Shown: in pieces, positions 12,959 to 61,045 of the stretch
Layout: each line of letters starts with the position of its first letter
Numbering within the stretch: position 1 is the first letter of the stretch
Assembly: GCA_907164885.2 (NCBI GenBank)
Contig: OU015499.1
Span: forward strand, 159,337,489 to 159,401,488
DNA length: 64,000 bases
Direction: 5' to 3'
Source of the DNA: Dolomedes plantarius
Lineage: Eukaryota; Arthropoda; Arachnida; Araneae; Dolomedidae
Notes under the pieces: model-generated
Told to the model about the DNA's origin: nothing
What the model saw: the letters and a program-made list of their open reading frames with translations, nothing else
Database searches by the model: none
Position numbers and translations under genes: made by a program

Positions 12959-14617
12959 CCGGGTGGCCATAATTAAACTGACAGTGCTCACAGTGTTCTG
13001 TAGCGCGATCTATTTGCGAGAATGACGCCACATTTTGTAAGAGGAAGATTAAACAAGACGGGGGACGAAGGATTTCGCGAAAAAATAAATTAGTTTCAAA
13101 AGTCACCGCTAGGGTAATATTTGGCGCTGTGTAATAGAAAATAGAGTGTTAACAAATGCAAATCAATACGGAAATTACCTTTTATTTTGCATTCAAATGA
13201 GGTTCAATGTGGCTGCCGTTGTTGTGGACCACATATTGCACAGTATGCACAACAGCAGAAAGTAACATGTCTGCAGGAATCTCCCGTACAGTCCGTGATA
13301 TGTTATCCTTCAACGTAGCCAGGTCCTGAACCACTCCTTGATAGACCTTGGACTTAAGGTAACCCCATAGCGAGAAGTCGCATGGGGTAAGATCAGGCGA
13401 CCGAGGTGGCCATGCAGTTGGAAAGTAGCGGCTACTGACTCTTTCTGTTGCGATATTTCTCTCCGGTAACAGAACAGGTTTCCGGTCCTGTCGGGGTAAT
13501 GTTCTCATAGAAGAATGGACCTACGATAAATTCCGCTGTGAACCCACACCAAACAGTTACCTTTGGTGAATGTAAGGGAATTTCTGTGACTGCATGTGGT
13601 GATTTGTCATCCCAAATTCGACAGTTCTGGGTATTCACAGTTCCATGCAGGTAAAAGTGGGCCTCGTCTCCCCATAAGATTTTCCACGACCAAGCATCAT
13701 CCACCTCCATTCTGGCAAGAAAGGTGAGAGCAAAAGTCAATCGCTTATCATGGTCGGGGTACAGTAACTCCTGTACACGGCTGATCTTGTACGGATAGAA
13801 GTTGATAATCTTTCGTAAGATTTTCCATGCCGTACTGTAAGGCATATCCATATTCCGAGCTAATCCACGAGCGCTAGAGGTGGCAGCAATATTGGTTGGT
13901 CCTCTGTCGACAATCGCCGTGGCAACTGCTTCGATTGTATCCTGTGGTACAGGCTTTCGTCCTCTGCCTGACTGAACCTTCAGAGAACCTGTTTTCTCAA
14001 ACGTCGCAACCATTGCTTTTAGCCCATTAACTGACACAGGACCGTTACCTTTACGCATTTTTTGTGCGTTCTAAAAGCACGAAGAGCGGCTGACGCGTTG
14101 CACTGGTTGAGGTAAAAGAATTTGACTAGTAACGCACGCTCGACTAAAGAAGGAGACATTGCACATAAACTTTCAATCCGATTGATTCGAAACGTAACAC
14201 ATTGCCTTTTAAAACCAAAGCAGCTGGCACTGTGCCAATGGATGTAACGTGAAATCTGAATAAAGAACTTCTTATGCTCAGCGTACGTGATATTGCAGAT
14301 CACGAGACTTTATCGGTGTTTACGTAGAATTTACGCTTTTTTAAAAGTGTTGCCATATTGCACTTGAACTAAATAAGAAAATGTGCATAATAAAAGGTAA
14401 TTTTATTCCGTATTAATTTGCATTTCTTAACATTCTATTTTCTATTACACAGCGCCAAATATTCCCCTAGCTGTGACTTTTGGAACTAATTTATTTTTTC
14501 GCGAAATCCTTCGTCCCCCGTCTTGTTTAATCTTCCTACAAAATGTGGCGTCATTCTCGCAAATAGATCGCGCTACAGAACACTGTGAGCACTGTCAGTT
14601 TAATTATGGCCACCCGG
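12959..14617 (-). mobile_element. Mariner-type element with about 225-bp terminal inverted repeats
   Basis: The ends CCGGGTGGCCATAATTAAAC and its complement are part of long inverted repeats (about 12959-13185 and 14396-14617), flanked by TA on both sides (12957-12958 and 14618-14619). The other Y copy has no such element at the corresponding point near 60478. The transposase inside is defective. Confidence 0.92.
13182..14159 (-). pseudogene. Arthropod mariner-family transposase (DUF4817-type N-terminus), defective
   Basis: The N-terminus starting at 14159 (VERALLVKFFYLNQCNASAA) is the helix-turn-helix region typical of this arthropod family. A frameshift near 14055 leads into KGNGPVSVNGLKAMV and the basic GRGRKPVP linker, then the first catalytic Asp in WGDEAHFYL. 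After VTGEKYRN the frame changes near 13450-13500, and the segment that should carry the second Asp (the DGAPPH-like motif) is missing. The last part has WPPRSPDLTPCDFSLWGYL with the third catalytic position. Loss of the second Asp makes it inactive whatever the frame. Confidence 0.88.
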
Positions 14618-16703: not shown

Positions 16704-18227
16704 TTAGAAATCGAATAGAAATCTTTCGTCTCTCACACAGTGAGGACGAAAGATTTCTATTCTGTGCGGGTACGAATATTTTTTTCCATGGTTGATTTCA
16801 GAAAACCTTTTCTTACATTTAGTGCAGCCCAAAAGTCTTTCCTCCATGAACAAGGTGATGCGTTTTAAAGATACCCTGGAAAGAAAATCTTCTGTAACAT
16901 GCATTGCATACAAAAGGTTTCTCTCCCACGTGGGTGCGGAGATGTATTTTTAAACAACCCTGCCCAGAAAACGTTATCTCACAGAGTACAGACGAAGGTT
17001 TTCTTTCCCGTATGGATGTTCAGATGTCTTCTTAAATGACTCTGTTGAGAAAATCTTTTCTCACATACCGTGCAGGTGAAAGGTTTCTCTCCTGTGTGGA
17101 TGCGGAGATGTGTTTTTAAATGACACTGTTGAAAAAATCTTTTCTCACATACCGTGCAGGTGAAAGGTTTCTCTCCTGTGTGGATGCGGAGATGTGTTTT
17201 TAAATGATACTGACGAGAAAATCTTTTCTCACATACCGTGCAGGTGAAAGGCTTCTCTACTGTGTGGATGCGGAGATGTACTCTTAAATGACCGTGTTGA
17301 GAAAATTTTTTCTCACATACAGTGCAGGCGAAAGGTTTCTGTCCTGTGTGGATGCGGAGATGTGTTTTTAAGTCACCCTGTAAAGCAAATTTCTTCTCAC
17401 ATACAGTGCAGGCGAAAGGTTTCTCTCCTGTGTGGATGCGGAGATGTGTTTCTAAAACAAACTGTACAGCAAATTTCTTCTCACATACAGTGCAGGCGAA
17501 AGGTTTCTCTCCTGTGTGGATGCGAAGATGTATTCTCAAATGACCTTGTTGAGAAAATCTTTTATGACATACCGTGCAGGCGAAAGGTTTCTCTCCTGTG
17601 TGGGTGCGGATATGTCTTTTTAAATCCTTCTGTACAGAAAATTTCTTCTCACATACACTGCAGGCGAAAGGTTTCTCTCCTGTGTGGATGCGGAGATGTA
17701 TTTTTAAATTATTCTGCCGAAGAAATCTTCTGTCACATACAGTGCAGTCAAAAGGCATCTCTGGTGTGGGTGCGGAGATGTCTTATTAAATCACTATGTA
17801 CATCAAATATTCTTTCACATACAGTGCATGCCAAAAGGTTCTCTCCTGTGTGGGTACAGGAAGTATTATCAGCAATGTGGTAGGAATGATGCGTTTTTAA
17901 GGAGGCCGACTGTGAAAATCTATCAGAAATTATTCAAAAAATTTCCTCGGTGCGAGAAAGAATCTGTGCACTGCACCTTTTTATATTCAGATTAGTTGTA
18001 CGTCTTACATGGAGAGAATTCCTCTTCAGCTTTAGTAGGGTTTGGTTTGTAGGAATGGCTTTCGTTGCAAGGCTCTTTTAGACTGGAAATGCACATTTCC
18101 ATTTCTGGCATTCCGACGTCACTGTACACGATGATGAGAAAACTAACTGCTGGCAATACGTTGAACTTCAATACTTGTGGATACCTCAAACATTCTAGTA
18201 TCGCATCGTACAATCTGTACCAAGCAC
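16704..18227 (-). pseudogene. C2H2 zinc-finger gene, broken copy 1
   Basis: This is a minus-strand exon entered through a splice acceptor (TTTACAG, exon from 18227). It starts with the same leader as the gene at 61046-62619, including a hydrophobic stretch (VLPAVSFLIIVYS), then stops near 17992 after a frameshift. The first finger lost its cysteines near 17910-17940, and another frameshift near 17765 follows the next finger. A run of nine intact CX2CX12HX3H fingers with TGEKPF linkers fills 16979-17758, and about three decayed fingers continue to 16704. As a whole it cannot make the long protein; a nine-finger product from an internal start is conceivable. Such genes usually encode nuclear DNA-binding proteins. 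Confidence 0.82.
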
Positions 18228-29770: not shown

Positions 29771-29997
29771 ATCCGCCTAACACAGATGGTACCTATGGAG
29801 GTATTTCCGTAATATGAGTACTTTCTTATAATAGATAGATACATTTCCTAATTATATGTATATTTCATAAAATTGTGTAAGAAATCTATTCACTTTTCGG
29901 CCGCAGTACGTGTAACTTGTGTTGCGACATCATGGACTTTTGAACTGGAACGGTTAGAGCGACGGTCAGCAGGTAGCCTTACAGTCGGCCGCAAAAA

Positions 29998-30005
29998 TAT
30001 ATAAG
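29998..30005 (+). promoter_or_regulatory. TATA box on the plus strand
   Basis: TATATAAG is followed by a GC-rich stretch (CACCGGTACC), like the TATA contexts of the minus-strand genes in this island. It points to a perfect hairpin 75 bp downstream rather than to a gene. Confidence 0.45.
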
Positions 30006-30078
30006 CACCGGTACCCCTTTGAAATTTTACAAGATCCATGGTTTGCCAATTTTTTTGGGGAAAGGAAAGGAATAACAA

Positions 30079-30127
30079 TGTATTATGTTTTAGAATAATC
30101 CTGAGGATTATTCTAAAGCATAATACA
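30079..30127 (+). repeat. 24-bp-stem hairpin with 1-nt centre
   Basis: The arms 30079-30102 and 30104-30127 are complementary with one T/C mismatch (G-U in RNA) around a single central G. It sits downstream of the plus-strand TATA at 29998 and upstream of a T-run near 30190. It could be a transcribed hairpin or a small palindrome with a DNA role. Confidence 0.75.
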
Positions 30128-30302
30128 TCGTTGAAAACAGATTGTTGACTGAAAAACACTTTGTAAGTATCACTGGAGTTGCGGTTGAATCTTTTTTTTT
30201 TTTTCTGATAATATAGTTGATATTACAGGAGGTACAATTCTTAAAATAAGCTTATATTTTTAACTCTCAAGCATTTTGTGATTAAAGGTGTTTGGATTTT
30301 TT

Positions 30303-30490
30303 AGGATAGGAATTCTTTCTAATGCCATTCCGTATCACTAGAGTTGTAATATGTTTTGGATTTTTTAGGATAGGAATTCTTTCTAATGTCATTCCGTATC
30401 ACTAGAGTTGCAATATGTTTTAATTTAGGATAGGAATTCTTTCTAATGCCATTCCGTATCACTGAAGTTGCAATATGTTTTAATTTAGGA
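30303..30490. repeat. Tandem repeat, about 60-bp unit x3, left of the activator gene
   Basis: Three units begin GGATAGGAATTCTTTC, with a partial fourth. They are related to the units at 32221-32431 on the other side of the gene (GGATTGGAATGCTTTC). Copies of a shared GATAATATAGTTGATATTAC element also lie near 30210 and 32660. Confidence 0.85.
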
Positions 30491-30569
30491 TGGGAATTGT
30501 TGTGTTTTTTAGGAAGAACAAACAACAGATTAATATATAAAAATAAATCTTTTATTTTGTTCGTTGTTA

Positions 30570-32008
30570 TTAAAAGGACGTTACATAGGTTTCTAAATTT
30601 TTAAAGAGTTCGTCAAAGTCTTCCGACATGTTTAAAAAGTTTGGAGTTTGAGGTTCTTCCAAGCAGGTCTGCATGATCAATTCCTCCGAATTGATTTTTT
30701 CAATATCCATTTGGCTCGTCGACAAGTCCATATCAATTTGTTCCAAATCCGTGTTCTTTGTCGACAAGTCCATAGGTTCAGGGACATAGTCTAATGTCTG
30801 GACATAATCAAGCGGAATCGGGGGTCCCAATTCCCGATTTCGAATGTCATTGTACATGTCGGCGAATTGGGGTATCAGATACAAGACTGTCTGAGGCGGA
30901 TGAAAAGAAGGTATTTCAAGTGGATTCGTCTGTGATTCGGCATCCATGACGACTAACGACGACGGTCCCGGCTCCGGATCCATGACGACTGACGACGACG
31001 GTCCCGGCTCCGGATCCATGACGACTGACGACGACGGTCCCGGCTCCGGATCCATGACGACTGACGACGACGGTCCCGGCTCCGGATCCAGTTGGGGAGG
31101 TTCGAACGAGTGATACACATTACGAACCGGAGGCGGCGGCGGCGGCATCAGCAAATCATCATCTAATCTGTCCAATGCCGGTGTCATGGGGGCCATGTCG
31201 TAAACGTCGATCCTCTTCCGTTTTAATTTGGTAGTCTCCCTCCAATTCCTGCACTCGAAGGGCAATTCTAGGTCGGCTCTCACGACATCCACAGAAAAGA
31301 GAGTCTTTTGGGCAGTCACCAGTACGTAGCACGTTCCCTCCGTCACCCGGTACTTGGATTCGGGTTCCAGGACGAAAAATTTGTAGACGAACTGGTCGGC
31401 GGCTCGGAATCCCCTTTTTCTGCGGACGACATCAAAAGATCTGGTCTTTTTTTCAGGCAACACGTAGAAGAAGAGGGGTACCGTCGTGGTCTGGTAAATG
31501 TGACAGGTCCCAGGTTCCACCACACGTTGTCCAAAAGTAAAATATTGTTTTACCACGAACGTGTTGTCGTACCTGACGAAGAAAGAATGAAAGAAAAAAA
31601 ATATGGAATGAGCTGCAATATATATATATATATATATATATTTTTTAAAAAAATAGGTCGTATTCAAATCCCCATTCGAAATGGTACTTACCGAAAACTC
31701 ACTCGAACGTCCGTGTTTTTTTTCCTGACACGTCGATCCAATTTCAGACGAGCGGCCACGGCGTCCCAGCTGACAGAATCGTAGTCATCCCAGCGGGTAA
31801 AAGATTCTCTGCCAGTCCTGTAGAAATTGGCGATTAAATTTTCACTTCTGTCTTCGAGGGGAGCAAAAAATACCTTGTCGTCCTCCAAATAGGCCGTGGA
31901 AATCAAAAGTTTACGCGAATCAAAAATATTCCGAAATCCTCTCTTTGTTTCGGGGTGCTGCAGCAATTGGACGGTAGTCGATAGCTTGGAAGGGAAAGCG
32001 TCAGCCAT
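30570..32008 (-). CDS. Probable acidic transcription activator, two exons (439 aa)
   Basis: Exon 1 is 32008-31692 and exon 2 is 31572-30570, joined through consensus splice sites (GTAAGT donor, CAG acceptor) that restore a continuous frame. The start was chosen at MADAFPS because it lies about 55 bp below a TATA box. Residues 1-230 are a basic, folded-looking region with no family I can name and may bind DNA. A run of seven prolines lies near 249. Four 12-residue DPEPGPSSSVVM units cover about 267-315. The end is acidic, with FDELFKNL at 425-432, an amphipathic motif like activation domains of p53 type. AATAAA follows the stop near 30551. It is the first gene of the island and a likely regulator of its neighbours; that role is inference. 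Confidence 0.72.
30946..31090 (-). repeat. 36-bp tandem repeat x4 inside the activator gene
   Basis: Four in-frame units with very little divergence encode DPEPGPSSSVVM. The near identity at the DNA level suggests recent expansion. Confidence 0.92.
31573..31691 (-). other. Intron of the activator gene (119 bp) with TA microsatellite
   Basis: The donor is GTAAGT (31691-31686) and the acceptor CAG (31575-31573). It contains (TA)n at about 31618-31641. Removing it joins the two frames without a stop. It is the only intron evident in the island, and it implies nuclear Pol II expression. Confidence 0.75.
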
Positions 32009-32060
32009 ATCGTTCACGAGCGAGCGAGTCGAATGAGAGAATTGCAAATCGGTGTCGTCC

Positions 32061-32067
32061 TTTTATA
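32061..32067 (-). promoter_or_regulatory. TATA box of the activator gene
   Basis: TATAAAA lies in the context GGATCGTATAAAAGG. The same GATCGTATAWAAGG core stands before the structured-RNA unit (38481-38488). A palindromic GATA-type sequence (TTATCTGATAAG) lies about 20 bp upstream. Confidence 0.72.
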
Positions 32068-32220
32068 CGATCCGGAACCCGTTATCTGATAAGATATGAC
32101 TTTCTATTTTTTTTGTTTTGTTTTTGTTTTTAGTTGTCCAATGTTGTGAAATTGTTTTTCATATCAAACAATTTTTTTTTTCCAAGTTTGTTCTCATATT
32201 GATTTTTAATAATTGTTAAA

Positions 32221-32431
32221 AAAAAAAGGTTTCATTTAGGATTGGAATGCTTTCTAATACCATTACTGGAGTTGAATCCTCTGATAATATAGTTGATATT
32301 ACATGTGATACCTTCAAGCATTTGCGATTTTAATAATTGTTAAAAAAAAAGGTTTCATTTAGGATTGGAATGCTTTCTAATACCATTATTGGAGTTGAAT
32401 CCTCTGATAATATAGTTGATATTACATGTGA
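32221..32431. repeat. Dispersed repeat, about 90-bp unit x2, right of the activator gene
   Basis: Two units (32221-32310 and 32342-32431) are nearly identical. They share the GGATTGGAATGC...GTTGAATCCTCTGATAATATAG layout with units at 30180-30490. Their placement on both sides of one gene recalls homologous repeat regions of some DNA viruses. Confidence 0.8.
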
Positions 32432-32968
32432 TCATTTCTAATACCATCCTTTTCTAACACAATTAGCTAAAAATGTATTATAATGGACATTTATTCCATG
32501 ATTTTAGGGGTCATTTGTTAATTATTATAAGGTCGTCCTGTCTATGTTTCACATCTAGCTAACATTCATAAAGTTCTAGATTAAGAGTCCATATAATTTC
32601 GTTAAGATTGTAAGTGCTTGTGGATTAAGATTACAGTAAATGAATTTGGATCCCCTTTGGATAAAAAAAAATATAGTTGATATTACAGGACCATATAATT
32701 TCGTTAAGACTGTAAGTGCTTGGAGGTATTAGATTATTTATTTTAGTATAATTATAAAAGGCATCACATTCGAAAGCCAGAAAGACAGAAAAAATCAAAA
32801 TTAATAAAGTATAAGGATGTATAGAAACATGATTATTCATGTATCTGTTCATCATCGGGTGACTGATTGGAGGAAAGAAATATTGTTACTATTGAAAAAC
32901 ACATTTCTACAAATGAAACAAAGTCTTTTTTATTATTATTTTTCCAAAGTTGGTAATCATTTTGACGC
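32432..32968. other. Intergenic region with a second short repeat pair
   Basis: The segment CATATAATTTCGTTAAG occurs near 32590 and again near 32692, followed each time by a similar 20 bp. No gene is supported. Confidence 0.6.
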
Positions 32969-33021
32969 AAAAAAATGGCCAGAGAACGTCTTTTTTCAAG
33001 ACGTTCTCTGGCCATTTTTTT
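32969..33021 (-). terminator. Perfect 24-bp hairpin 3' of the small RING gene
   Basis: The arms 32969-32992 and 32998-33021 are perfectly complementary with a 5-nt loop. On the gene strand the stem starts A7TGGCC and ends GGCCAT7, and it is preceded by GGGGGTA. It lies 63 bp below the stop codon at 33084, with no AATAAA between. It is the likely 3'-end signal or a processing hairpin; the mechanism is not known from sequence. Confidence 0.65.
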
Positions 33022-33083
33022 ACCCCCTTTTTTTTTTCGAAATAAAAAGGAGAATGAAAAACAAATACAGTGTTTGTTTTTTT

Positions 33084-33326
33084 TTAGTTCAGGAATTTGG
33101 GATTCACATCGGACCAAGGCGGCATGTTTTTCAATCTTTCTAAATCTTTGCTGCTGGGATCGTAACAGTCGGGACAATCCCAATATAAGGATTTTCGGCG
33201 AGCACAATATACGTGGCAAATGTGCCTACATGAAAACATGAAGGCACAATGCGGCGGCACCGGCGTCTGGCATCCCCAACAGTTGAGTACCGGCAGAGCG
33301 GCATAGTGAAGAGCTACTGAACTCAT
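33084..33326 (-). CDS. Small RING-H2-like protein (80 aa)
   Basis: The start at 33326 (MSSVALHY) lies about 45 bp below a TATA box; an upstream ATG in the same frame precedes the expected transcript start. Zinc ligands fit a RING: C16-X2-C19, C33-X-H35, H38-X2-C41 and C51-X2-C54, with a hydrophobic Trp at 49. RING proteins act as E3 ubiquitin ligases with an E2 partner. The protein is little more than the RING itself plus a 25-residue tail, as in many small viral RING proteins. It lies downstream of the larger RING gene in the same direction. Ligase activity is inferred. Confidence 0.75.
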   Translation of the reverse strand: MSSVALHYAALPVLNCWGCQTPVPPHCAFMFSCRHICHVYCARRKSLYWDCPDCYDPSSKDLERLKNMPPWSDVNPKFLN

Positions 33327-33370
33327 TGTGATAAGTTGTCGAATGATTCCGAAGCTCAGACGGGTCGCTC

Positions 33371-33378
33371 TTTTTATA
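33371..33378 (-). promoter_or_regulatory. TATA box of the small RING gene
   Basis: TATAAAAA is preceded by ATCG, as in the activator gene (ATCGTATAAAA). An ETS-type CCGGAAGT lies about 30 bp upstream (33404-33411). Confidence 0.7.
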
Positions 33379-33411
33379 CGATTTTCAAACCGGATGTTAA
33401 GCACCGGAAGT

Positions 33412-33697
33412 CATTTCAAAGTTTGTTCCACAAACTTTTTTTTTTATATATATATACATATATATACAATGTTGGAATTTTTTTTTCTTCTTCTTCCTCT
33501 GCTGTAGCAATCAATATAGTAAAAAATCCAAAATTGGTTTCCATAAATAAAGCAAAGTAGCAATCAATATAGTAAAATCCAAAATTGGTTTTTTAAAATA
33601 ATCTTTTTTTCTGGAAACATCCTCATATCATCTAAAAAAGTAGTAGAGCAAAGCGTGCGACAAGTCCTTATACCAACGTTGTCAGCCCTTTGACCAT
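33412..33697. other. Intergenic region with a direct repeat
   Basis: The sequence GTAGCAATCAATATAGTAAA followed by CCAAAATTGGTTT occurs near 33505 and again near 33559. A TA-rich tract lies at 33446-33468. No gene is seen. Confidence 0.6.
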
Positions 33698-33757
33698 AAA
33701 AAAAATGGGGGCCAAAAAGATGCTTAACTAAGCATCTTTTTGGCCCCCATTTTTTTT
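33698..33757 (-). terminator. Perfect 29-bp hairpin 3' of the larger RING gene
   Basis: The arms 33698-33726 and 33729-33757 match perfectly, with only 2 nt between them. On the gene strand it starts A8TGGGGGCC, ends with the complement and T8, and is preceded by GGGGGTA. It lies 31 bp below the stop codon with no AATAAA between. It has the same architecture as the hairpins at 32969 and 34642 but a different core. Confidence 0.65.
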
Positions 33758-33787
33758 ACCCCCTGTGAGAAAAAACAACAAATGAAA

Positions 33788-34339
33788 TCATCCGAGAGAC
33801 ATTTGTTTCAAGAAACAGAGGTTGAAATAACATTCATCGGAACAGGTGTGATGTTCTCGGACAAATCCTCTCAGATGGACGAATAGAGTACGATCCTTTC
33901 GAGCCTCCTCCAAAAAAAACAGGGCAAAGCTGTTGGGATCCCATTCAGGATACCTGTGCAGATCCGGAAGAGGTTTCGAGTCTGTAAAAGTCTGAATTGT
34001 CATGCATCCCCCGGGGCAGAATCTCCCGCGATCCAATCTTTCCTGGATAATTTCGTGCACTCGCCTCAGAAATTTGCGGTTCCGACTTTTCAGAGGCTCC
34101 CTTTCCATATACATCATAAGGGTCTGGTAGTTGTACAAACTACCCAATTTTTCAAACCAAAATGTCTGATATTCTTTATAGTCGGCCCGACATACAGGGC
34201 ATTGACGTATACCTCCCTTCACGTATGCTGCTGACAGGCAAACGTCGTGCATCCTATGATGTGTCGCACACTCTATCATGACAAAAAATATGCTGGATTC
34301 CAGCACGGGCTCGTGGCAAATAGCACACACGTCCTCCAT
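33788..34339 (-). CDS. RING-H2 protein (183 aa)
   Basis: The RING finger occupies residues 5-50: C5-X2-C8, C24, H27/H28, H31-X2-C34, C47-P-V-C50, ideal for an E3 ubiquitin ligase. The rest (51-183) has aromatic and charged segments (FWFEKLGSLYNY, then RFLRRVHEIIQERLDRGRF) and a second Cys/His group near the end (HHTCSDEC) that may bind zinc; I do not recognise it. The start at 34339 was preferred to the in-frame ATG at 34378, which lies too close to the TATA-like element at 34386. The promoter region has CCAAT and CRE boxes. Viral RING proteins often target host restriction factors; that role is speculation here. Confidence 0.82.
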   Translation of the reverse strand: MEDVCAICHEPVLESSIFFVMIECATHHRMHDVCLSAAYVKGGIRQCPVCRADYKEYQTFWFEKLGSLYNYQTLMMYMEREPLKSRNRKFLRRVHEIIQERLDRGRFCPGGCMTIQTFTDSKPLPDLHRYPEWDPNSFALFFLEEARKDRTLFVHLRGFVREHHTCSDECYFNLCFLKQMSLG

Positions 34340-34385
34340 CTCGAGAGTCAGAATACAAAATGAAATGAATTTTCTCATAAGCGGA

Positions 34386-34453
34386 TTTTTATTGACGCGT
34401 CAGGAGGTTGCTGATTGGCTATGTGACGTCATGTCAAGAGGTTTCTGATTGGT
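34386..34453 (-). promoter_or_regulatory. Promoter of the larger RING gene: TATA-like, CCAAT x2 and CRE
   Basis: AATAAAAA (34386-34393) stands at the TATA position. Upstream on the minus strand are two CCAATCAG boxes (about 34411-34417 and 34446-34452) with a perfect CRE, TGACGTCA, at 34424-34431 between them. This is a well-formed Pol II promoter with inputs from NF-Y and CREB/ATF-type factors. Confidence 0.68.
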
Positions 34454-34641
34454 CAGATCTTTAAACAATTTGAGAATCCAACTTTGGAAACAACAAAAAA
34501 AAAGAAAACAATTTCTGATAGCTGTTGATTAAGAATACAATTTTGGAAACAAATATTAATAAAAGAGGAAATCAACACGCAATTCAAGTCTTATGCAAAA
34601 AAAAAAGTCTTATTCCCAAGGTTGTCAAGCATTTCTGTGCA

Positions 34642-34693
34642 AAAAAAATGGCCGGAACGTCCTTTTTTTTCAGGACGTTCCGGCCATTTTTTT
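34642..34693 (-). terminator. Perfect 22-bp hairpin 3' of the small basic protein gene
   Basis: The arms 34642-34663 and 34672-34693 are perfectly complementary with an 8-nt loop. On the gene strand it begins A7TGGCC and ends GGCCAT7, after GAGAGTA. It lies 41 bp below the stop codon at 34734, with no AATAAA between. Confidence 0.65.
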
Positions 34694-34733
34694 ACTCTCC
34701 CAACGAGGATGTTGGGGGAACCAAAAAAAAAAT

Positions 34734-35069
34734 TTAAAGTTCTTTTGGCACTTTGGGAATTTTGAAAGTCCCCCATTTTATCGGGGGTAATTTCAGAAAG
34801 TTTCTAATAGAATTTTCCTCCTTCATTCGCTCTTCTCGCGATAACTTTCGGGCATCAGGACACTGGAGAACAATTGGATTTGCAAGTTTAGCGGGGCATT
34901 CTTCTGGAATGTCGTCGATGACCGACGCCAATTTCTTACACGCCTCGACCAACAAAGGATTCTCCGGAACTGTTATTGAAAAGTCCAATTTCTTTCGACA
35001 CCTGTCGGTATTCCAAAAAACGCGGCGAACGGCCGGTTTCTTCGGAGCTCTGGGACAACTCGGAGCCAT
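34734..35069 (-). CDS. Small basic protein of unknown function (111 aa)
   Basis: The start at 35069 (MAPSCPRAPKK) lies about 38 bp below a clear TATA box. The N-terminal 30 residues are basic (KKPAVRR, RCRKK) and could be a nuclear localisation signal. The middle is acidic (IDDIPEEC), and the end is KLPPIKWGTF followed by KIPKVPKEL. An LQCPD motif near residue 74 is one residue away from the LxCxE pocket-protein motif. I recognise no family. It ends in one of the three hairpins and has the gene layout of its neighbours, which supports it being real. Confidence 0.62.
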   Translation of the reverse strand: MAPSCPRAPKKPAVRRVFWNTDRCRKKLDFSITVPENPLLVEACKKLASVIDDIPEECPAKLANPIVLQCPDARKLSREERMKEENSIRNFLKLPPIKWGTFKIPKVPKEL

Positions 35070-35106
35070 GACGTGTGAGATATGCAGACTGGAGCGCGAG
35101 CAATCC

Positions 35107-35114
35107 TTTATATA
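35107..35114 (-). promoter_or_regulatory. TATA box of the small basic protein gene
   Basis: TATATAAA in the context GGGTATATAAAGG lies about 40 bp before the start codon, with a C/T-rich initiator region (TCTGCATATCTC) downstream. Confidence 0.72.
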
Positions 35115-35647
35115 CCCAAACTGATATCGCCAAGTAGCCAACAAGTAGCGCCAAATACTAAACGATGATACAATATCTTTAAACCAATATGGGTAGAACA
35201 AGAAATGGCTGTAGACTGGAAGATTGTCGAAGGTTAAAAATCCAAGTTTGACTCTGAATCAATATTGCTTGAGACTATAGGAGATTGACTATGTATAAGA
35301 TACAAAGTTTTGTGGGGGTAGTATAAATCCAAGTATGATTCTGAATAAATATTGCTTGAGACTATAGGAGGTTGAAGATGTCCAAACAATGTCAAAAGAA
35401 TTTGTAATAATGTTTCTTATTTAGAATGTCCAAACAATACTCCAAGAGTTGATACAATATCCTTACTACAAACTAGCTTGATGAACCAATATCGGCAGAA
35501 TAAATGACTGCAGATCAACCGCTCTATATATACTCAGAGAATAGAAAAAAAAAAACAAATTTTTATTTCTGAATTTGGCTGAAAAATATTTTCTAAGATT
35601 TCCAAATCGAGTCCAATCTAAAAATGACGTCATATAAAATAAAACTT
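35115..35647. other. Intergenic region with direct repeats
   Basis: A segment of about 50 bp (TATTGCTTGAGACTATAGGA and flanks) occurs near 35240-35291 and 35327-35375. An AACCAATAT segment with similar flanks occurs near 35182 and 35482. At 35625 on the plus strand a CRE is fused to a TATA-like sequence (TGACGTCATATAAAA). No gene is supported. Confidence 0.6.
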
Positions 35648-35757
35648 TCAATGGCTGATCGGATCGATCGGAAATTTAATGATTCTGGATATGCCCCCGA
35701 CGATAGCCTTCCATCTGTGGCAATCCTCCTCTCTGCAATCACAACAACGTCCTGCAT
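35648..35757 (-). pseudogene. Duplicated 3' end of the 705-aa gene
   Basis: About 35 codons plus stop repeat the C-terminus of the neighbouring gene in frame, including CCDCREEDCHRWKA and the FPIDPISH ending. Similarity extends into the 3' flank to the TGACGTCATATAAAA element, found after both stops (35625 and 35892). It begins where an alternative acceptor (ATGCAG) could lie, but it is more simply a tandem duplication remnant or the end of a deleted paralogue. Confidence 0.72.
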
Positions 35758-35914
35758 TTTTTTTAATGTATATATTTATAAGATAAAAAAGAATTTACAA
35801 ACAATGTCAAGCGAATCTTTATTCAAAAGTTGTAGGTGTATTTACATAAGTTTCCATTCGTGGTTCGAGTAAGTTGTGTTTGGCGCCTAAATGACGTCAT
35901 ATAAAAGAAAACAT

Positions 35915-38032
35915 TCAATGGCTAATCGGATCAATTGGAAACTTAATTACCCTGGATATCCCCCCGACGGTAGCCTTCCATCTGTGGCAATCTTCTTCTC
36001 CGCAATCACAACAAGGTCCAGCATCGAAAGGTGTCATCAGCTTAAATCGTATGTTGTAAAAATAAATTTGAAATGATCGGGCCATCTGTTCGCATCTCCT
36101 CATGGTGTACGGGTCCACGACATGGATCCTGTTCACTTTGAATCTGTCAATGCATTTGGTGACGGAAGTGTTGTTCTGAAATCCGTCCATTGATATGCTC
36201 AATTTCCCGTCGCTTATCGTAAATCCTCCATTTTTCTCGATACTCAATACGGCCGTGGAAAAATGGCGCGTCACTTGTTTCTGAATTGGTTTGCGGTCGT
36301 GCCAGATGGGAGGGACGATGGCGAAAGGAATTATTCTGGCTATCCCGCAGATGGTCGCTTTCCACCTGTGGCAATTGAGTCGAAGGCAATACCTACAGGG
36401 CGTTACATCTGTATCTAGAATCTGTTCTGGAAGCATTTTTGGGAAATGTGAACTCTTATATCGAATCCATACATCCATGGCACACGAGTCTATGAGAAAA
36501 AGTTGTTTTATAACCATGCCGGAAACGTCCTGGTCCAAATGATGAAAAGAGTCGTCGTCTCGCGAGATGGATATTCTTCCGTTTGTGAGGGTGTATCCAT
36601 CTTCCTCAATAGCTAGAACAGCCACAACATTTTTATGAAAAGTCATTTGAAACTGGTTTGTTGTACAATTGGAGTAGTAGTAAGGTTTCTCGATACGACG
36701 CTTGAAAGATCCTCGTGCAGCAGGTGTCTCAGCAGGGGGCCTTCTCGAGTCAGGTGTCTCAGCAGGGGGCCTTCTCGAGTCAGGTGTCTTAGCAGGGAGC
36801 CGTCTCGATTCCTTAGCAGCAGGGGGGCGTCTCGATTCCTTAGCAGCAGGGAGCCTTCTCGAGTCAGGTGTCTCAGCAGGGAGCCGTCTCGAGTCAGGTG
36901 TCTCAGCAGGGAGCCGTCTCGATTCCTTAGCAGCAGGGGTTCGTCTCGATTCCTTAGCAGCAGGGGTTCGTCTCGATTCCTTAGCAGCAGGGGTTCGTCT
37001 CGATTCCTTATCAGCAGGGAGCCGTCTCGATTCCTTAGCAGCAGGGGTTCGTCTCGATTCCTTAGCAGCAGGGGTTCGTCTCGATTCCTTAGCAGCAGGG
37101 GTTCGTCTCGATTCCTTAGCAGCAGGGGTTCGTCTCGATTCCTTAGCAGCAGGGAGCCGTCTCGATTCCTTAGCAGCAGGGAGCCGTCTCGATTCCTTAG
37201 CAGCAGGGGTTCGTCTCGATTCCTTAGCAGCAGGGGTTCGTCTCGATTCCTTATCAGCAGGGGTTCGTCTCGATTCCTTATCAGCAGGGGTTCGTCTCGA
37301 TTCCTTAGCAGCAGGGAGCCGTCTCGATTCCTTAGCAGCAGGGAGCCGTCTCGATTCCTTATCAGCAGGGAGCCGTCTCGATTCCTTAGCAGCAGGGGTT
37401 CGTCTCGATTCTTCAGCAGGGGTTCGTCTCGATTCTTCAGCAGGGGTTCGTCTCGATTCCTTAGCAGCAGGGGTTCGTCTCGATTCCTTAGCAGCAGGGG
37501 TTCGTCTCGATTCTTCAGCAGCAGGGGTTCGTCTCGATTCTTCAGCAGCAGGGGTTCGTCTCGATTCTTCAGCAGCAGGGGTTCGTCTCGATTCTTCAGC
37601 AGCAGGGTCGATACAGGATTCCGATTCTTCAGCAGCAAGGTCGATACAGGATTCCGATTCTTCAGCAGCAAGGTCGATACAGGATTCCGATTCTTCAGCA
37701 GCAGGGTCGATACAGGATTCCGATTCTTCAGCAGCAAGGTCGATACAGGATTCCGATTCTTCAGCAGCAAGGTCGATACAGGATTCCGATTCTTCAGCAG
37801 CAGGGTCGATACAGGATTCCGATTCTTCAGCAGCAGGGTCGATACAGGATTCCGGTTTCTCTTCAAGCGGGGATTCTTCTCCTCCCTCGTCAGATGACAC
37901 ACTTTCATCATAGCAATTTTCTTTCAAATCGTCGGGTCCAAAATCCAATCCATCATGCTCCAATTCCATAGGCATATGGTATGAAAAATCATGATGTTCC
38001 ATGTCTGACAAACTGAGCACTGGCATATCCAT
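35915..38032 (-). CDS. Repeat-rich protein with duplicated Cys/His domain (705 aa)
   Basis: The start at 38032 lies about 77 bp below a TATA box; AATAAA follows near 35818. Residues 1-55 are acidic (HDGLDFGPDDL). About 56-145 is an 11-residue ESESCIDPAAE repeat, and about 146-439 a 9-residue ESRRTPAAK/ESRRLPAAK repeat, strongly basic and surely disordered. The C-terminal 266 residues hold two related units of about 115 residues, each with a GRISIS or GKLSIS strand, a D..TM..-type middle and the motif CX2CX4CHRWKAT (C546, C549, C554, H555; C674, C677, C682, H683). The motif looks zinc-binding and is new to me. An acidic head, basic disordered centre and paired zinc modules suggest a nuclear or nucleic-acid-binding regulator. 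No homologue is recognised. Confidence 0.75.
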   Translation of the reverse strand: MDMPVLSLSDMEHHDFSYHMPMELEHDGLDFGPDDLKENCYDESVSSDEGGEESPLEEKPESCIDPAAEESESCIDPAAEESESCIDLAAEESESCIDLAAEESESCIDPAAEESESCIDLAAEESESCIDLAAEESESCIDPAAEESRRTPAAEESRRTPAAEESRRTPAAEESRRTPAAKESRRTPAAKESRRTPAEESRRTPAEESRRTPAAKESRRLPADKESRRLPAAKESRRLPAAKESRRTPADKESRRTPADKESRRTPAAKESRRTPAAKESRRLPAAKESRRLPAAKESRRTPAAKESRRTPAAKESRRTPAAKESRRTPAAKESRRLPADKESRRTPAAKESRRTPAAKESRRTPAAKESRRLPAETPDSRRLPAETPDSRRLPAAKESRRPPAAKESRRLPAKTPDSRRPPAETPDSRRPPAETPAARGSFKRRIEKPYYYSNCTTNQFQMTFHKNVVAVLAIEEDGYTLTNGRISISRDDDSFHHLDQDVSGMVIKQLFLIDSCAMDVWIRYKSSHFPKMLPEQILDTDVTPCRYCLRLNCHRWKATICGIARIIPFAIVPPIWHDRKPIQKQVTRHFSTAVLSIEKNGGFTISDGKLSISMDGFQNNTSVTKCIDRFKVNRIHVVDPYTMRRCEQMARSFQIYFYNIRFKLMTPFDAGPCCDCGEEDCHRWKATVGGISRVIKFPIDPISH
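36716..37860 (-). repeat. In-frame minisatellite of 24/27/30/33-bp units
   Basis: About 1.1 kb of tandem units all encode variants of ESRRTPAAK and, towards the N-terminal end, ESESCIDPAAE. Every unit is a multiple of 3 bp, so the frame survives unit loss or gain. For the same reason at least two plus-strand frames and another minus-strand frame stay open across it; these are shadows. Assembly length here may be unreliable. Confidence 0.92.
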
Positions 38033-38108
38033 GGCAAAGCAAAACGTCTTGTCCTGTTAACAGTAAAAAATACAATTAGAATGAATGCCAATCCAACCGA
38101 CATCAACA

Positions 38109-38116
38109 TTTATATA
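38109..38116 (-). promoter_or_regulatory. TATA box of the 705-aa gene
   Basis: TATATAAA in the context TAGTATATAAATG lies about 77 bp above the start codon. It lies just downstream of the T-rich tract that ends the structured-RNA unit. Confidence 0.65.
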
Positions 38117-38171
38117 CTACATGATTTGAGAAGAAAGAAAAAAGAAAAAAAAAGAAAAAAAAAAGAAAAAA

Positions 38172-38455
38172 AGATCAACTTTCCATGGGGTGTCTCAGAC
38201 CCTCGAGTCAAACAACTTCGAGGGTCGTCTCAGACCGTCGTCCTCCAGGTCCCTGGCCAGCCCAGAGGGGGGTATGCTTGGGTAGCGCCTGCCCCCCTGG
38301 ACATCCAACCAGGGACCCCGGGAGGTCTCGGACCCTGAGGTCAGGACCATCCCGGTTAGTCCAGAGGGGGGTATGCTTGGGTAGCGCCTGCCCCTCTGGA
38401 CTTGAGGGTTAGTTCTCCATCGGAGAACCACCCGCTCCGGCCGCAGCCGGAGAAC
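38172..38455 (-). ncRNA. Candidate structured non-coding RNA with six or more stem-loops
   Basis: A TATA box at 38481-38488 predicts a minus-strand transcript from about 38455. It would run through tightly packed inverted repeats: 38435-38452 (7-bp stem, 4-nt loop), 38412-38428 (7 bp), 38360-38400 (10-bp stem), its duplicate at 38261-38300 enclosed by a perfect 9-bp stem (38248-38256 with 38309-38317), and 38198-38226 (9 bp). A 34-bp core is identical between the two central hairpins. The unit ends in a long pyrimidine tract with T-runs (38128-38172). Frames across it lack a consistent ATG context and are repeat-derived. It could be a viral-type non-coding RNA or a pri-miRNA; this is unproven. 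Confidence 0.55.
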
Positions 38456-38480
38456 TGAAGATTTCAGCGTTGGAGGCCTC

Positions 38481-38488
38481 CTTATATA
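38481..38488 (-). promoter_or_regulatory. TATA box of the structured-RNA unit
   Basis: TATATAAG in the context CGGATCGTATATAAGGAGG nearly duplicates the activator gene's core promoter (GGATCGTATAAAAGGACG). Confidence 0.7.
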
Positions 38489-38628
38489 CGATCCGAGTGA
38501 AACGCAGCGGCCCCTGGCGGATTTTTGTCAGTATGCCTTCAGATCTCGAAGACAGAAGACGTGCTGGGATTGAACTCCCAATGTTAAAATATACTTTGCG
38601 CTATAACGTTGGAATGCATGGACTGATC

Positions 38629-38990
38629 GACTTGAAATTTTTATAAGGGGTAGGGTTTCGTATAAGGCTCATATTGATCCCTCTACTAGGGGGTACATGA
38701 CCCTTGTAACTTTGCAAAAAATGACTTTAGAAATTTCTTTCTGTAATATCTCTCGAACCAATGATCCCAGGGGCTTGAAATTTTTATAGTATATAGAGTG
38801 TGATAGGATGTTTAAGATGACCCTACAATGGGGTCTCCAGGACCCTTGGAACTTTGCCAAAAATGGCTTTAGAAATTTCTTTCTGTAATATCTCTCGAAC
38901 CAATGACCCCAGGGGCTTGAAATTTTTATAGTATATAGAGTGTGATAGGATGTTTAAGATGACCCTCTACTAGGGGGTCCAGGACCCCCG
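38629..38990. repeat. Tandem repeat, 142-bp unit, about 2.5 copies
   Basis: Units share CTTGAAATTTTTATA, CTCTCGAACCAATGA and TTTAGAAATTTCTTTCTG. The first is diverged, the next two nearly identical, with a period of 142 bp. There is no coding sense. The repeat leads into the palindromic region. Confidence 0.85.
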
Positions 38991-39269
38991 GAAGTGGGTT
39001 AAAACAAAAATTTTGGAATATCACTTGGCCGAGTTGATTTTCGTACTGAGGGGGTCGAGTAGAGTTGAATGGTACTAACCGGAAGTCTCTACTTCCGGTA
39101 AAAGTTCTTTTGGGCCTAGACCCTCCATATTTGGTCACCTTAAAGACCAAGTGAAACCCTATCGAACGCCAAAATTTCAAGTCTCTGCGACAATTAGGAG
39201 CCGAGTTATGACGGTTTTACCGTTTTTTAAGTCGTACTTCCAAATTTTTGTATGGGGGGTCTATACCCC

Positions 39270-39486
39270 CCATGGTCGGCTCATATCGTGAAAGATCTCG
39301 TGAAACTCTATCGATTGGCACAAATCGGAACTCTCTACGACAATTAGAAGCCGAGTTATGACGGATTGAAATTTACCGGAAGTGAGTTTTAATTTTGTCA
39401 TAACTCGGCTTCTAATTATCGTAGAGAGTTCCGGTTACTTTCAATAGATAGAGTTTCACGAGACCTTTCAGATGAGCCGACCATGG
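39270..39486. repeat. Large imperfect palindrome 1, arms about 90 bp
   Basis: The left arm 39270-39362 and right arm 39397-39486 are complementary over most of their length, both ending in CCATGGTCGGCTCAT at the base. They share the core CTCTACGACAATTAGAAGCC. Outside the base are GGGGTCTA-type runs on both sides. Confidence 0.9.
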
Positions 39487-39663
39487 GGGTCTAGGCCCCA
39501 TAGAAAGAAAACCCGGAAGTGAGTAACTCGGCTCCTAATTGTCGTAGAGAGTTCCGGTTTGTACCTACGTACTCTACGGAACCCCCGCAATCCGAAAAAA
39601 ATATCGGCACCACTTGACTATGGAAATTACACTTCCAATGGAAATTAATGCCTGTTGCTCTGG

Positions 39664-39915
39664 ACCTAGACCCCCCCATGGTGAGCTCATCTGAAACGTC
39701 TCGTGAAACTCTTTCGTTTGGCACAAACCGGAAGTCTCTACGACAATTAGAAGCCGAGTTATGCCGATCTAAAGTGTTTTTAAATTTGTTTAAAATTTTT
39801 AAAAACACTTTAGATCGGCATAACTCGGCTTCTAATTGTCGTAGAGACTTGAAATTTTAACCCTAGATAGAGTTTCATGAGACGTTTCAGATGAGCTCAC
39901 CATGGGGGGTCTAGA
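39664..39915. repeat. Large palindrome 2, arms about 110 bp with 53-bp perfect stem
   Basis: The innermost 53 bp of each arm (39732-39784 and 39798-39850) are perfectly complementary with a 13-bp spacer. The outer arms continue with mismatches to GGTCTAGACCCC at the base. It shares its core with palindrome 1, and single copies of the core also occur at about 39183 and 39535. No transposase terminus or target duplication is seen. Confidence 0.92.
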
Positions 39916-40318
39916 CCCCATAGATCTGAACCGGAAAACAGATTATAGGATACCGGAAAACAGATCTATGGGGTCTAGTCCCCAACATATCAATCTGTGT
40001 GTTCTGTATATAATACATTAGAATTTACAACAGTATATATTCTTCAAATTTCTTTCCGTTTATTTACTGTGTAATAATGCTTTTCTCCGATTTTTCACAT
40101 AATGTGAATCAAACATTTCAAAACAGTTATCTGTGGACCTCTTGTAGTCAATCAGATACACGGATGATAAGGTCTTTTCCAGACCAACAGCTTTTAAATA
40201 TTGTATTACGAGATCGTAAACACGGAATAAAAATTCTAAACAAATAAATCCACACAGTTTCGATGTGATACTCCTTAAAAATTACATGTGAGAACAATTT
40301 TATATTTTCACAGAAATA

Positions 40319-51144: not shown

Positions 51145-51322
51145 CCGGGCGATGGCCGAATGGCTAGGGCGCTGGCCCTCGGTACCAGAGTCTGTGGGTT
51201 CGAGTCCCACAATTGCCATGGATGTTTGTAGCCGTTCGGAATCGGCTTTAAGCAGTAGGTCCCGGTCTAATTATCCCTCGTGTAGCAAAAAATGACGTAG
51301 CGCTCCAAAACCAAACCAAACC
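51145..51322 (+). mobile_element. tRNA-derived SINE (about 178 bp)
   Basis: The head is tRNA-like with an A box (TGGCCGAATGGCT) and B box (GGGTTCGAGTCCC), followed by a conserved tail (AGCCGTTCGGAATCGGC, GTAGGTCCCGGTC) and an end of CCAAA repeats. It is flanked by 12-bp direct repeats TTTAATATTGAG, as produced by LINE-driven target-primed reverse transcription. It splits the hAT transposase. The tail recurs at 15157. Confidence 0.9.
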
Positions 51323-54966: not shown

Positions 54967-56516
54967 CAATGCTCAAAAAAATTAGAGGAGGAAGCAAAGA
55001 AGTTAAGAAAACCGTGCGAGACAGCCACGTATTGGCATAAAATGGATAGTACACGCGTATCAATGCGCAATACAGAAAAAAAGACGTAAATAAATTTGTA
55101 ATTAAGCTTTAATTCTTTGAAAATATGGAAAAAACATGAAAAGATGATTTAGGGCAACAATTTGCTTACATATAAACCATAAAAAAAGTATTGTTTAGAA
55201 ATGATGCAAGATTTTTAATATGGCGTGTGGTCTCCTCGAACAGCTAAGACTGCTGCACACCTGTTTTCCATGGATGCGATGATGTTATCGATACAACTTT
55301 GGGGAATACTCTTCCACTCCTCAAGAAGTGCAATCTCCAAGTCTCGGAGAATAAAAGGAGGCCTTGGTCTCGAAGCAATGCGTCGTCCGAACATGTCCCA
55401 AACATGCTCGATTGGATTCAGGTCAGGAGAGCACGCTGGCCATTCCATACGATGAATTGTTTCAGCTACAAGCATGTTCTCCACAAGACGAGCTGTATGC
55501 GGTCTGGTATTATCATGCTGGAAAACAAAGGAATCTCTAATGGCTGCAGCGTAAGGTATGACATAAGGTCTCAGTATCGTCTGCATACCTTCGGGCCGTA
55601 AAAGTACCATTCCGAATGACATGCAGGTCCGTACGTCCACCTATGCTGATTTCACCCCATACCATAAAACCAGCTCGTCTGTATTGTGACCTTTCACGAA
55701 CGAACGAGGGGTTATTTCGAGTGCCTCTTTCCCTCCATACCAAAACACGTCGGATGTCACACTCCAGACTGAATCGGGACTCGTCTGTAAACAGCACTTG
55801 GCTCCAATCATATTGCTCCCAATCTCGATGTTCAGCGGCCCATCTTCTTCGGGCCGCACGGTGGCGTGAGGTCAACGGAATGCAGACCATTGGCCTACGT
55901 GCATGGAGACCTCCCTGATGAAGCCTAATACGTACTGTTTGGTTGGAAACCCTTCGTCCTGTTTCCAAGAGCAACTGTCTTTGCAGCTGAGTAGCATTGT
56001 CTGTTCTGTATCGACGAGCAGTTAACAGTATATACCGGTCATCAGTTGCTGTAGTGGCGCGTGGCCGACCTTGCCCTGGTCGACGTCTAACATTCCCTGT
56101 TTCTTGGAATCGATTCCACAGCCTTGCAACGACACTTCTGGCGAATCCAACAGTGTCCGCGACACTACGTTGTGTTTGCCCGGATTCAGGTCTGCCTATA
56201 ATACGCCATGCCATGAATTCCGGTAAATCACGTTGTTGAGACATTTTCAAGTCACATTTTCTATAAAAGAATAACTGAGCAATCGAATTTCACAGTTAAG
56301 TCAGTGAAACAGACGTTTCTGCATCATCCCTATTTCCGCCCTTATGTACCTTTTCTGGTTTTTGACGTCATGAAGTTTGATTTGCATATGAAGTTTTCTT
56401 CTTCTGTTTCCTGCTAGGCTTTAAATTATGGATGATTTATTTTATGGTACTTATCGGTGCAAGTATTTGCGTAATTTCGTTAAAACCATGTGCTCCCCTA
56501 ATTGTTTTGAGCAGTG
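54967..56516 (-). mobile_element. Tc1-like element, copy 2
   Basis: It is the paralogue of 7594-9143 with TA at both ends (54965-54966 and 56517-56518). The right-hand TA has expanded into a long microsatellite. Confidence 0.88.
55215..56244 (-). pseudogene. Tc1-like transposase, frameshifted (copy 2)
   Basis: The start MSQQRDLPEFMAWRI at 56244 is intact here, unlike the first copy. The HTH region, the GRPRATTATDD linker and the first Asp (FTDESRF) are in one frame. The second Asp (HDNTRPHTAR) and the Glu (SPDLNPIEHVW) follow in another, with the shift near 55600 as in copy 1. Correcting for that single shift, the protein would be near the normal 340-residue length. It is inactive unless the shift is bypassed. 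Confidence 0.9.
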
Positions 56517-60608: not shown

Positions 60609-61025
60609 TTAATATGGTGTATGATCTCCCAGAGAAGCAATATAGAACATAAGGCGATGCGTGATGCTGTCAATTATGCGGTCTATGAGTTCGGTAGGAA
60701 GTGAAAGCCATTGCTCTTGCATAGCAGTTGAAAGCGTGGCTAGGGTCCTAGGAGGAGGATTGACAGCAGCTATACGTCGTCCTAAAGCGCCCCAAACATG
60801 CTCGATAGGATTCAGGCCCTGTGATCGAGCTGGCCACTCCATGCGCTGAATTGCTTCCCGCTCAAGATAAGTATCCACGATGCGAGTCCTGTGCGGTCTC
60901 GCGTTATACTCCTGTAGCACGAAAGCATCACCTATTGCCCCGGCATAAGGGCGCACATAAGCATCAAGGATGTCATCTCTATAGGTGTGAGCATTCACAT
61001 TTTCACGGTGAAAGACATGGAGGTC
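60609..61025 (-). pseudogene. C-terminal half of a second Tc1-like transposase
   Basis: It reads NVNAHTYRDDILDAYVRPYA, then AFVLQEYNARPHRTR and SQGLNPIEHVWGALGRRIA. The second Asp has become Tyr in QEYNARPH, so it is catalytically dead. It is cut off at about 61025, where it fuses directly to the zinc-finger coding sequence. This is a different Tc1 subfamily from the elements at 7594 and 54967. Confidence 0.82.
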
Positions 61026-61045
61026 ACTGTTGAGAAAATTTTTTC

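Follow-up and report, generated by a model that had tools for sequence, protein, structure and literature searches.

What is a compact island of five genes doing between two duplications of host DNA in a spider genome? The island lies in a 64,000-nucleotide stretch of Dolomedes plantarius contig OU015499.1 (positions 159,337,489 to 159,401,488), here called the window. An earlier note, made from the sequence alone, had read it as a large DNA virus integrated into the genome or else a giant mobile element, and both halves of that reading are supported here: other copies of the island join genes for a DNA polymerase, PIF infection proteins and RNA-polymerase-type proteins, and the element ends in a well-defined terminus and was inserted at TA. 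We conclude, with a probability of roughly 0.88, that the island (29980..39983, unstranded) makes up a single arm of the palindrome that forms the end repeat of an endogenous naldavirus, a virus which has spread in the host genome as a giant transposon-like element. Many copies with palindromic arms and the same sharp terminus are present, and they are linked to the viral genes; a single-TA empty site was found for one element, and the window copy breaks off near a palindrome axis.

Searches of the 2.78-Gb host genome, in which copy counts are lower bounds for repeats, returned at least 120 matches to RING183, a 183-aa RING protein of the island. In 45 of these the match spans residues 1-183 at 96% identity or more, 44 of the 45 being free of stops, and 26 of the 45 can be grouped into 13 pairs that face each other at distances of 5.7-15.4 kb. 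For exon 2 of gene E, the one spliced gene, there are at least 175 matches (121 of 256 candidates scored). Such numerous and dispersed copies are unlike the single-copy, many-intron host genes that the earlier note had named as evidence against its reading. A sharp terminus, TACAGTCGGCCGC, was found at 74 genome sites with the search pattern TACAGTCGGCCGCAAAAATATATAAGC and up to two mismatches allowed, and the reversed control gave 0. The window carries its outer terminus, TACAGTCGGCCGCAAAAATATATAAGC, at 29980..30006 on the plus strand, at the host edge. In seven host junctions (L013, L020-L023, L025 and L026) the window ceases to align with the other copies at 29,976-29,980; in an eighth copy, L024, the terminus lies 96 bp past the aligned stretch. 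With the window itself, nine junctions were read, and the host flanks were different in 9/9.

The 74 termini divide by their first base into 58 of T-type, on 16 contigs, 15 of C-type and one other. A second RING gene, RING196, whose 196-aa product resembles RING183 at 25-27%, was located 5-9 kb outside 12 of the 15 C-type termini and outside none of the 58 T-type termini. Because RING196 occurs outside the C-type only, the T-type is taken to mark the host edge and the C-type the junction with viral unique DNA. The inverted-repeat-rich palindrome centre of the window (38995..39983, unstranded) matches the palindrome centres of copies on contigs C3, C4, C12 and C219 over 934-989 bases and in both orientations, which therefore places the axis near 39,945. 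The island runs about 40 bp beyond this axis, alignment to other copies ends there, and a host repeat starts again at 39,985, directly right of the island edge at 39,983. Thus the window copy is one palindrome arm, from its outer terminus to just beyond the axis, broken at the palindrome centre. Facing terminus pairs less than 30 kb apart number 21: eight T/T pairs (8.0-21.4 kb), 12 T/C pairs, one of them nested inside a T/T pair, and one pair with a variant base. No arm gene was found in the T/T pair on C5 among the matches listed. If the ends of a full element recombined with each other, T/T palindromes would be left behind, much as solo LTRs are; these palindromes could also move on their own.

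The genes beside other copies of the palindrome identify the class of the element. The earlier note had proposed looking for capsid, polymerase or integrase genes on linked or other scaffolds; polymerase and PIF genes were found next to other copies. All seven profile matches to PIF-1 were above cut-off (7/7; E 9.5e-10 for the whole protein), and a 922-aa DNA polymerase B (E 1.5e-25) is encoded at the same loci. A 900-aa Rpb2-like protein (Rpb2_6) and a 428-aa Rpb1-like protein (Rpb1_2) exceeded the Pfam cut-off; they fit LEF-8 and LEF-9, which with LEF-4 are the late-transcription RNA-polymerase proteins of the Lefavirales, the Pfam models being general and not LEF-specific. A putative pif3 product was judged by pattern only. 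The same unique DNA encodes a Sushi protein, an innexin, a BIR-RING IAP and a Bcl-2 protein, as well as an AlkB-like oxygenase, an XRN-type nuclease, an SF1 helicase and a NIF/HAD protein, which we take to be 38K-like. A 732-aa protein with a chitin-binding domain also lies beside the palindromes, and we presume from its size and domain that it is VP91-like. It has six relatives at 29-39% identity, from metagenome sources, and none among the viral contigs searched. A sequence search of the PDB with the PIF-like protein, the VP91-like protein and a third protein gave no match, and single-sequence structure models reached mean pLDDT values of 28.5 and 33.7, too low to be of use.

Together, the PIF, polymerase B and other such genes beside the arms place the element in the class Naldaviricetes, for which the pif genes (pif0-3 and pif5) are described as signature genes in the part of the published account available to us (PMC10271883). 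By its predicted infection genes the element is akin to baculoviruses. Other traits of the class are a circular genome, a rod-shaped enveloped nucleocapsid and replication in the nucleus; the element is seen here as integrated copies. Membership of the Nimaviridae is argued against by the Rpb1- and Rpb2-like proteins, since the same part of that account describes nimaviruses as being without lef RNA-polymerase genes (PMC10271883). A herpesvirus, suggested by the inverted repeats and RING genes, was rejected; the capsid profile PF03122, run without a working control, had 0 matches, and PIF genes are present instead. A sister lineage on C6 (7336503-7364465) and C329 carries PIF-0 and PIF-1 about 3.4 kb apart; its polymerase and VP91-like protein are distinct, at 51% and 33% identity respectively. 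A further polymerase-B match, at C8:10599900-10600817, falls in an open frame of 2,308 aa that does not resemble the virus loci, and perhaps belongs to another mobile element.

The most complete element, on C13, spans 148.9 kb and has the order palindrome-unique-palindrome. Its T terminus at 82,379,455 and C terminus at 82,403,209 are followed by the RING196 gene and then by a unique region with the polymerase (82,438,734), PIF-1 (82,467,879) and the VP91-like gene (82,490,944). A second pair of arms stands at the far end, where the T terminus ends at 82,528,354; the expected second C terminus is absent from the terminus matches. The C12 copy at 33.6 Mb runs into host repeats by 33.656 Mb, and a probe at 129,010,000 on C9 gave a 99% match to the polymerase-side piece of this copy. 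At that C9 provirus, L126 (C9:128985000-128986500) consists only of N, which limits how far it can be read. For insertion, the two host flanks of a T/T element at C11:77,690,721-77,706,196 were joined around one TA and searched for as an empty site. All of the 40 sites scored (291 candidates) matched over 219-221 of 221 bases at 99% and without length change, and these 40 are copies of a dispersed host repeat. Since the empty sites are intact with a single TA, the C11 element was inserted at TA with its duplication. A TA target duplication, a trait of the Tc1/mariner type, is therefore established for this element. The Phage_integrase profile had 0 matches in the genome, with controls at 14/14, a profile that need not cover every recombinase.

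The T/T geometry also suggests another explanation: a foldback-type transposon in its own right, having captured regulatory genes, would have inserted into the virus as the palindrome, and the island would be half of one such transposon. The eight facing T/T pairs of 8.0-21.4 kb fit this account, and the palindrome alone bears inverted, TA-flanked ends. However, on the inner side of the C-type junction RING196 and the DNA around it themselves form an inverted repeat: at about 113.14-113.24 Mb of C11, RING196 flanks the unique region as inverted copies that are 92-93% identical (L117/L118). With RING196 standing at 12 of 15 C-type junctions, the arms therefore seem to belong to the layout of the viral genome, and solo ends left by recombination explain the T/T pairs equally well. 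We regard a separate foldback transposon as unlikely, while it is the strongest competitor to the viral end repeat.

Some copies are young. The two arms of the copy at 129 Mb on C9 differ at five sites and nine gaps over 7,322 aligned bases and are therefore recent. RING183 differs at 0-8 of 552 sites across nine copies (in each pair, 0-6 codons with synonymous and 0-3 with replacement changes), and its flanks diverge by at most 8%, or by 15% downstream in one copy. The cassette has also been amplified in tandem. In array L120 (C9:23253590-23410486; 23.25-23.41 Mb), 11 of the 45 close RING183 copies share one strand and are interspersed with partial copies; the sampled unit of 5.27 kb is 99.4% identical to its neighbour. 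In this unit the RING80, RING183 and 111-aa frames are intact and gene E is shortened, with another tail; a T terminus lies at 23,252,940. Array L121 (C9:146252306-146274235) consists of six tandem gene E copies, 4.1-4.3 kb apart, within a terminus pair 24.9 kb apart. Two of its sampled units are identical over 1,489 bases, and their exon 2 is 84-85% identical to that of the window. Values of dN/dS were 0.14 and 0.16 for RING183, 0.30 for gene E against the copy in the C9 array, 0.18 for the C-terminus of the 705-aa protein and 0.09 for the polymerase, in the sole unsaturated pair of six; they therefore indicate constraint in some genes, though not in RING80.

Tandem cassettes with intact frames (units of 5.27 kb in L120 and 4.11 kb in L121) and the gene E ratio of 0.30 would also be expected if the arm genes were host genes co-opted for antiviral defence or small-RNA production. 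Yet selection acting on the virus prior to its integration would also produce constraint, stop-bearing copies exist, and adjacent array units are 99.4-100% identical and hence recent, so that we consider co-option improbable.

A mitochondrial COX1 fragment in the host genome reads as that of an arthropod and is probably chelicerate-like. Relatives of the polymerase fit a viral lineage in spiders. A profile search returned 122 proteins at E <= 1e-10, and among the 120 listed, 64 are at least 39% identical. Eleven of these 64 carry species names, and all are spiders: Araneus ventricosus (four), Argiope bruennichi (two), Trichonephila (two), Nephila pilipes, Caerostris extrusa and Oedothorax gibbosus, with the lineage of two of these species confirmed by look-up. 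The remaining 56 are distant (22-26%), and those named to organism are archaeal. The WSSV polymerase presumably exceeds the length filter of this search, which is thus no test of nimaviruses. Against viral contigs the polymerase gave best segments of only 19-36% identity (best 80 of 98). In the tree, four host polymerase copies fall in three places, and at least three lineages therefore colonised the host. Spider gene sets carry the viral polymerase as 'DNA polymerase delta catalytic subunit like protein', a warning that viral polymerases sit in such sets under host-like names. A contaminant or infecting virus misassembled onto host contigs would account for the high similarity of copies and the presence of some on small contigs (C219, C232 and C376), and is nonetheless very improbable given 58 T-type termini over 16 contigs, nine different flanks, an empty site matched 40 times, diverged and stop-bearing copies, and a related polymerase on a 126-Mb contig of Argiope bruennichi.

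For the endogenous naldavirus, we propose that a virus got into the germ line and that the terminus served as substrate for a TA-specific transposase, supplied by either the virus or the host. The window copy would then have lost its second arm and the rest of the element through breakage at the unstable palindrome centre. The arm may be the early regulatory region of the virus. It would encode RING ubiquitin ligases that counter host defence, together with an acidic transcription activator from a spliced gene and a protein rich in repeats, and would also give rise to hairpin and structured RNAs.

Several points weigh against this account. The TA site is known for one element only, and no transposase or integrase was found in the frames given to Pfam (pieces totalling about 70 kb from three copies, covering part of the unique region). 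Several proviruses apparently have one side of the unique region, which may in part reflect gaps. A 172-aa PIF2-family protein fell below cut-off, and p74/PIF-0 was above it at two places, both in the sister lineage (C6 and C329). The window copy is itself without PIF, polymerase or structural genes, consistent with the earlier note, which had seen no structural or replication gene there. The comparison of RING183 between the window and the C9 copy at 129 Mb gave a dN/dS of 0.78, from four changes, and RING80 showed 0 synonymous and 5 replacement changes. Finally, an early regulatory role of the arm is a prediction from the kinds of gene that it carries.

The closest known counterparts are the endogenous nimaviruses of crustaceans (Majanivirus, Pemonivirus, Clopovirus and whispoviruses; PMC10871703). 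These too are large DNA viruses of the PIF-bearing class with many near-intact copies in arthropod genomes, the behaviour of giant transposable elements, and host-like genes such as BIR proteins and innexins (PMC10871703). As described in the portion of that account available to us, they occupy telomere repeats, 28S rDNA or (AT)n sites, use tyrosine recombinases or a Ginger2 transposase, and have a 46-bp inverted end in one group only (PMC10871703). In contrast, the spider element targets TA, ends in palindromes of about 16-24 kb, carries Rpb1/Rpb2-like genes and gave no Phage_integrase profile match. The same portion makes no mention of spiders or chelicerates (PMC10871703). The Lefavirales (Baculoviridae, Nudiviridae and Hytrosaviridae) share PIF genes, DNA polymerase B and RNA-polymerase-type proteins with the element, as far as the part of the source at hand describes them (PMC10271883). 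The element differs in being integrated and transposon-like, with large end palindromes, and would be a candidate member of the order. We take the VP91-like and 38K-like proteins, by domain, as a further likeness to this order. Teratorn, a fish herpesvirus-piggyBac element, is likewise a large virus that has become mobile as a giant DNA transposon; its ends are inverted and its target is duplicated, as given in the available part of its description (PMC10175614). It belongs to another virus class, with a TTAA target and a piggyBac-like transposase (PMC10175614), whereas the spider element uses TA, has flanks that differ from TTAA, and showed no transposase in the frames scanned.

Among the best-matching papers of the open literature searched, with preprints and most subscription journals outside its scope, none dealt with PIF-bearing viruses in spider genomes. 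Within that literature, a naldavirus in spiders, with palindromic ends, a TA target and a tandemly amplified regulatory cassette, is apparently new. The broader proposal stands at about even odds: spiders harbour a separate branch of PIF-bearing viruses, present as giant elements that target TA. Each provirus would lie between large palindromes with the regulatory genes, these palindromes would survive by themselves as solo LTRs do, and the regulatory cassette would have been amplified in tandem in the genome. If true, this would add one more case, next to Teratorn and the crustacean nimaviruses, in which a large virus has independently merged with a transposon life style. The element extends PIF-bearing viruses to spiders and leaves a multi-copy record of them, some copies of which are very recent. 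Large palindromes with a fixed terminus and a TA target are a new end structure for viruses that act as transposons, and the recent copies allow continued movement of such viruses to be tested.

Within the island, the earlier description of five genes on one strand with a TATA box each held up: five minus-strand genes were found, one with a single small GT-AG intron, and TATA-like boxes are seen by eye upstream of the frames. Gene E (30570..32008) has two exons, at about 31692-32008 and 30570-31572, with an intron of about 119 nt between them (splice signals and boundaries by eye); its tail, rich in proline and acidic residues, would be activator-like by composition. Next come the 80-aa RING-like protein RING80 (33084..33326), RING183 (33788..34339), a 111-aa basic protein with no Pfam family match (34734..35069) and a 705-aa protein (35915..38032) with acidic/basic repeats and then a duplicated cysteine-bearing C-terminal domain, whose 461-aa counterparts lie head to head in L012. 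Two RING proteins had been claimed, and both assignments are weak by Pfam. RING183 matches Pfam zf-RING_2 below the curated cut-off (E 1.8e-4; 22.1 against 27.3 bits), and RING80, recognised by its cysteine pattern, reached E 0.1 only. No relatives of RING183 were found in the phage records, viral contigs or protein collection searched.

Folding far below shuffled sequence bears out the palindromes and structured-RNA unit noted earlier. Four minus-strand hairpins gave z-scores of -8.4 to -11.6, with 0/200 shuffles reaching each: one close to the terminus (30074..30132, z -10.3) and one 3' of each of the RING80 (32969..33021, z -11.6), RING183 (33697..33758, z -9.7) and 111-aa (34642..34693, z -8.4) genes. 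The three gene-end hairpins have A-run/T-run stems that barely change between the copies printed; the RING80 stem is the same in these, that of RING183 is almost invariant and that of the 111-aa gene is conserved. A TGACAAC.TTGG motif follows two of the three. The hairpins may serve 3'-end formation or have miRNA-like or dsRNA roles. The structured-RNA unit (38170..38480, minus strand; z -6.8, 0/100 shuffles) lies in the palindrome centre, 3' of a TATA-like box, and has a 97% match in the centre of L012. It contains two near-identical hairpins with the common loop CAGGCGCUACCCAAGCAUACC. Rfam at gathering score assigned no family to the island, and the 41 rows up to E 1 were rejected: all scored below gathering, and most came from models of the miRNA type, to which any long stem can be fitted.

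The island proved real, with sharper edges (29,980 and 39,983) than the earlier note had drawn, and its higher GC content was confirmed: 0.34-0.50 in 2-kb steps, against 0.26-0.32 in the adjoining 8 kb on each side, host GC being as high as 0.43 elsewhere in the window. The host duplications on either side were likewise recovered. The island is surrounded by tandemly duplicated DNA that contains C2H2 zinc-finger frames, and zinc-finger arrays with an 84-bp unit lie at 16833-17888 and 60987-62267 in the two flanking duplications. Tc1- and mariner-like transposase frames, named by eye, occur in the host flanks at 8166-8837, 55537-56250 and 13432-14058. The one tRNA-type Rfam match, outside the island at 51148-51218, scored 37.9 bits with no call by ARAGORN and is perhaps the head of a SINE.

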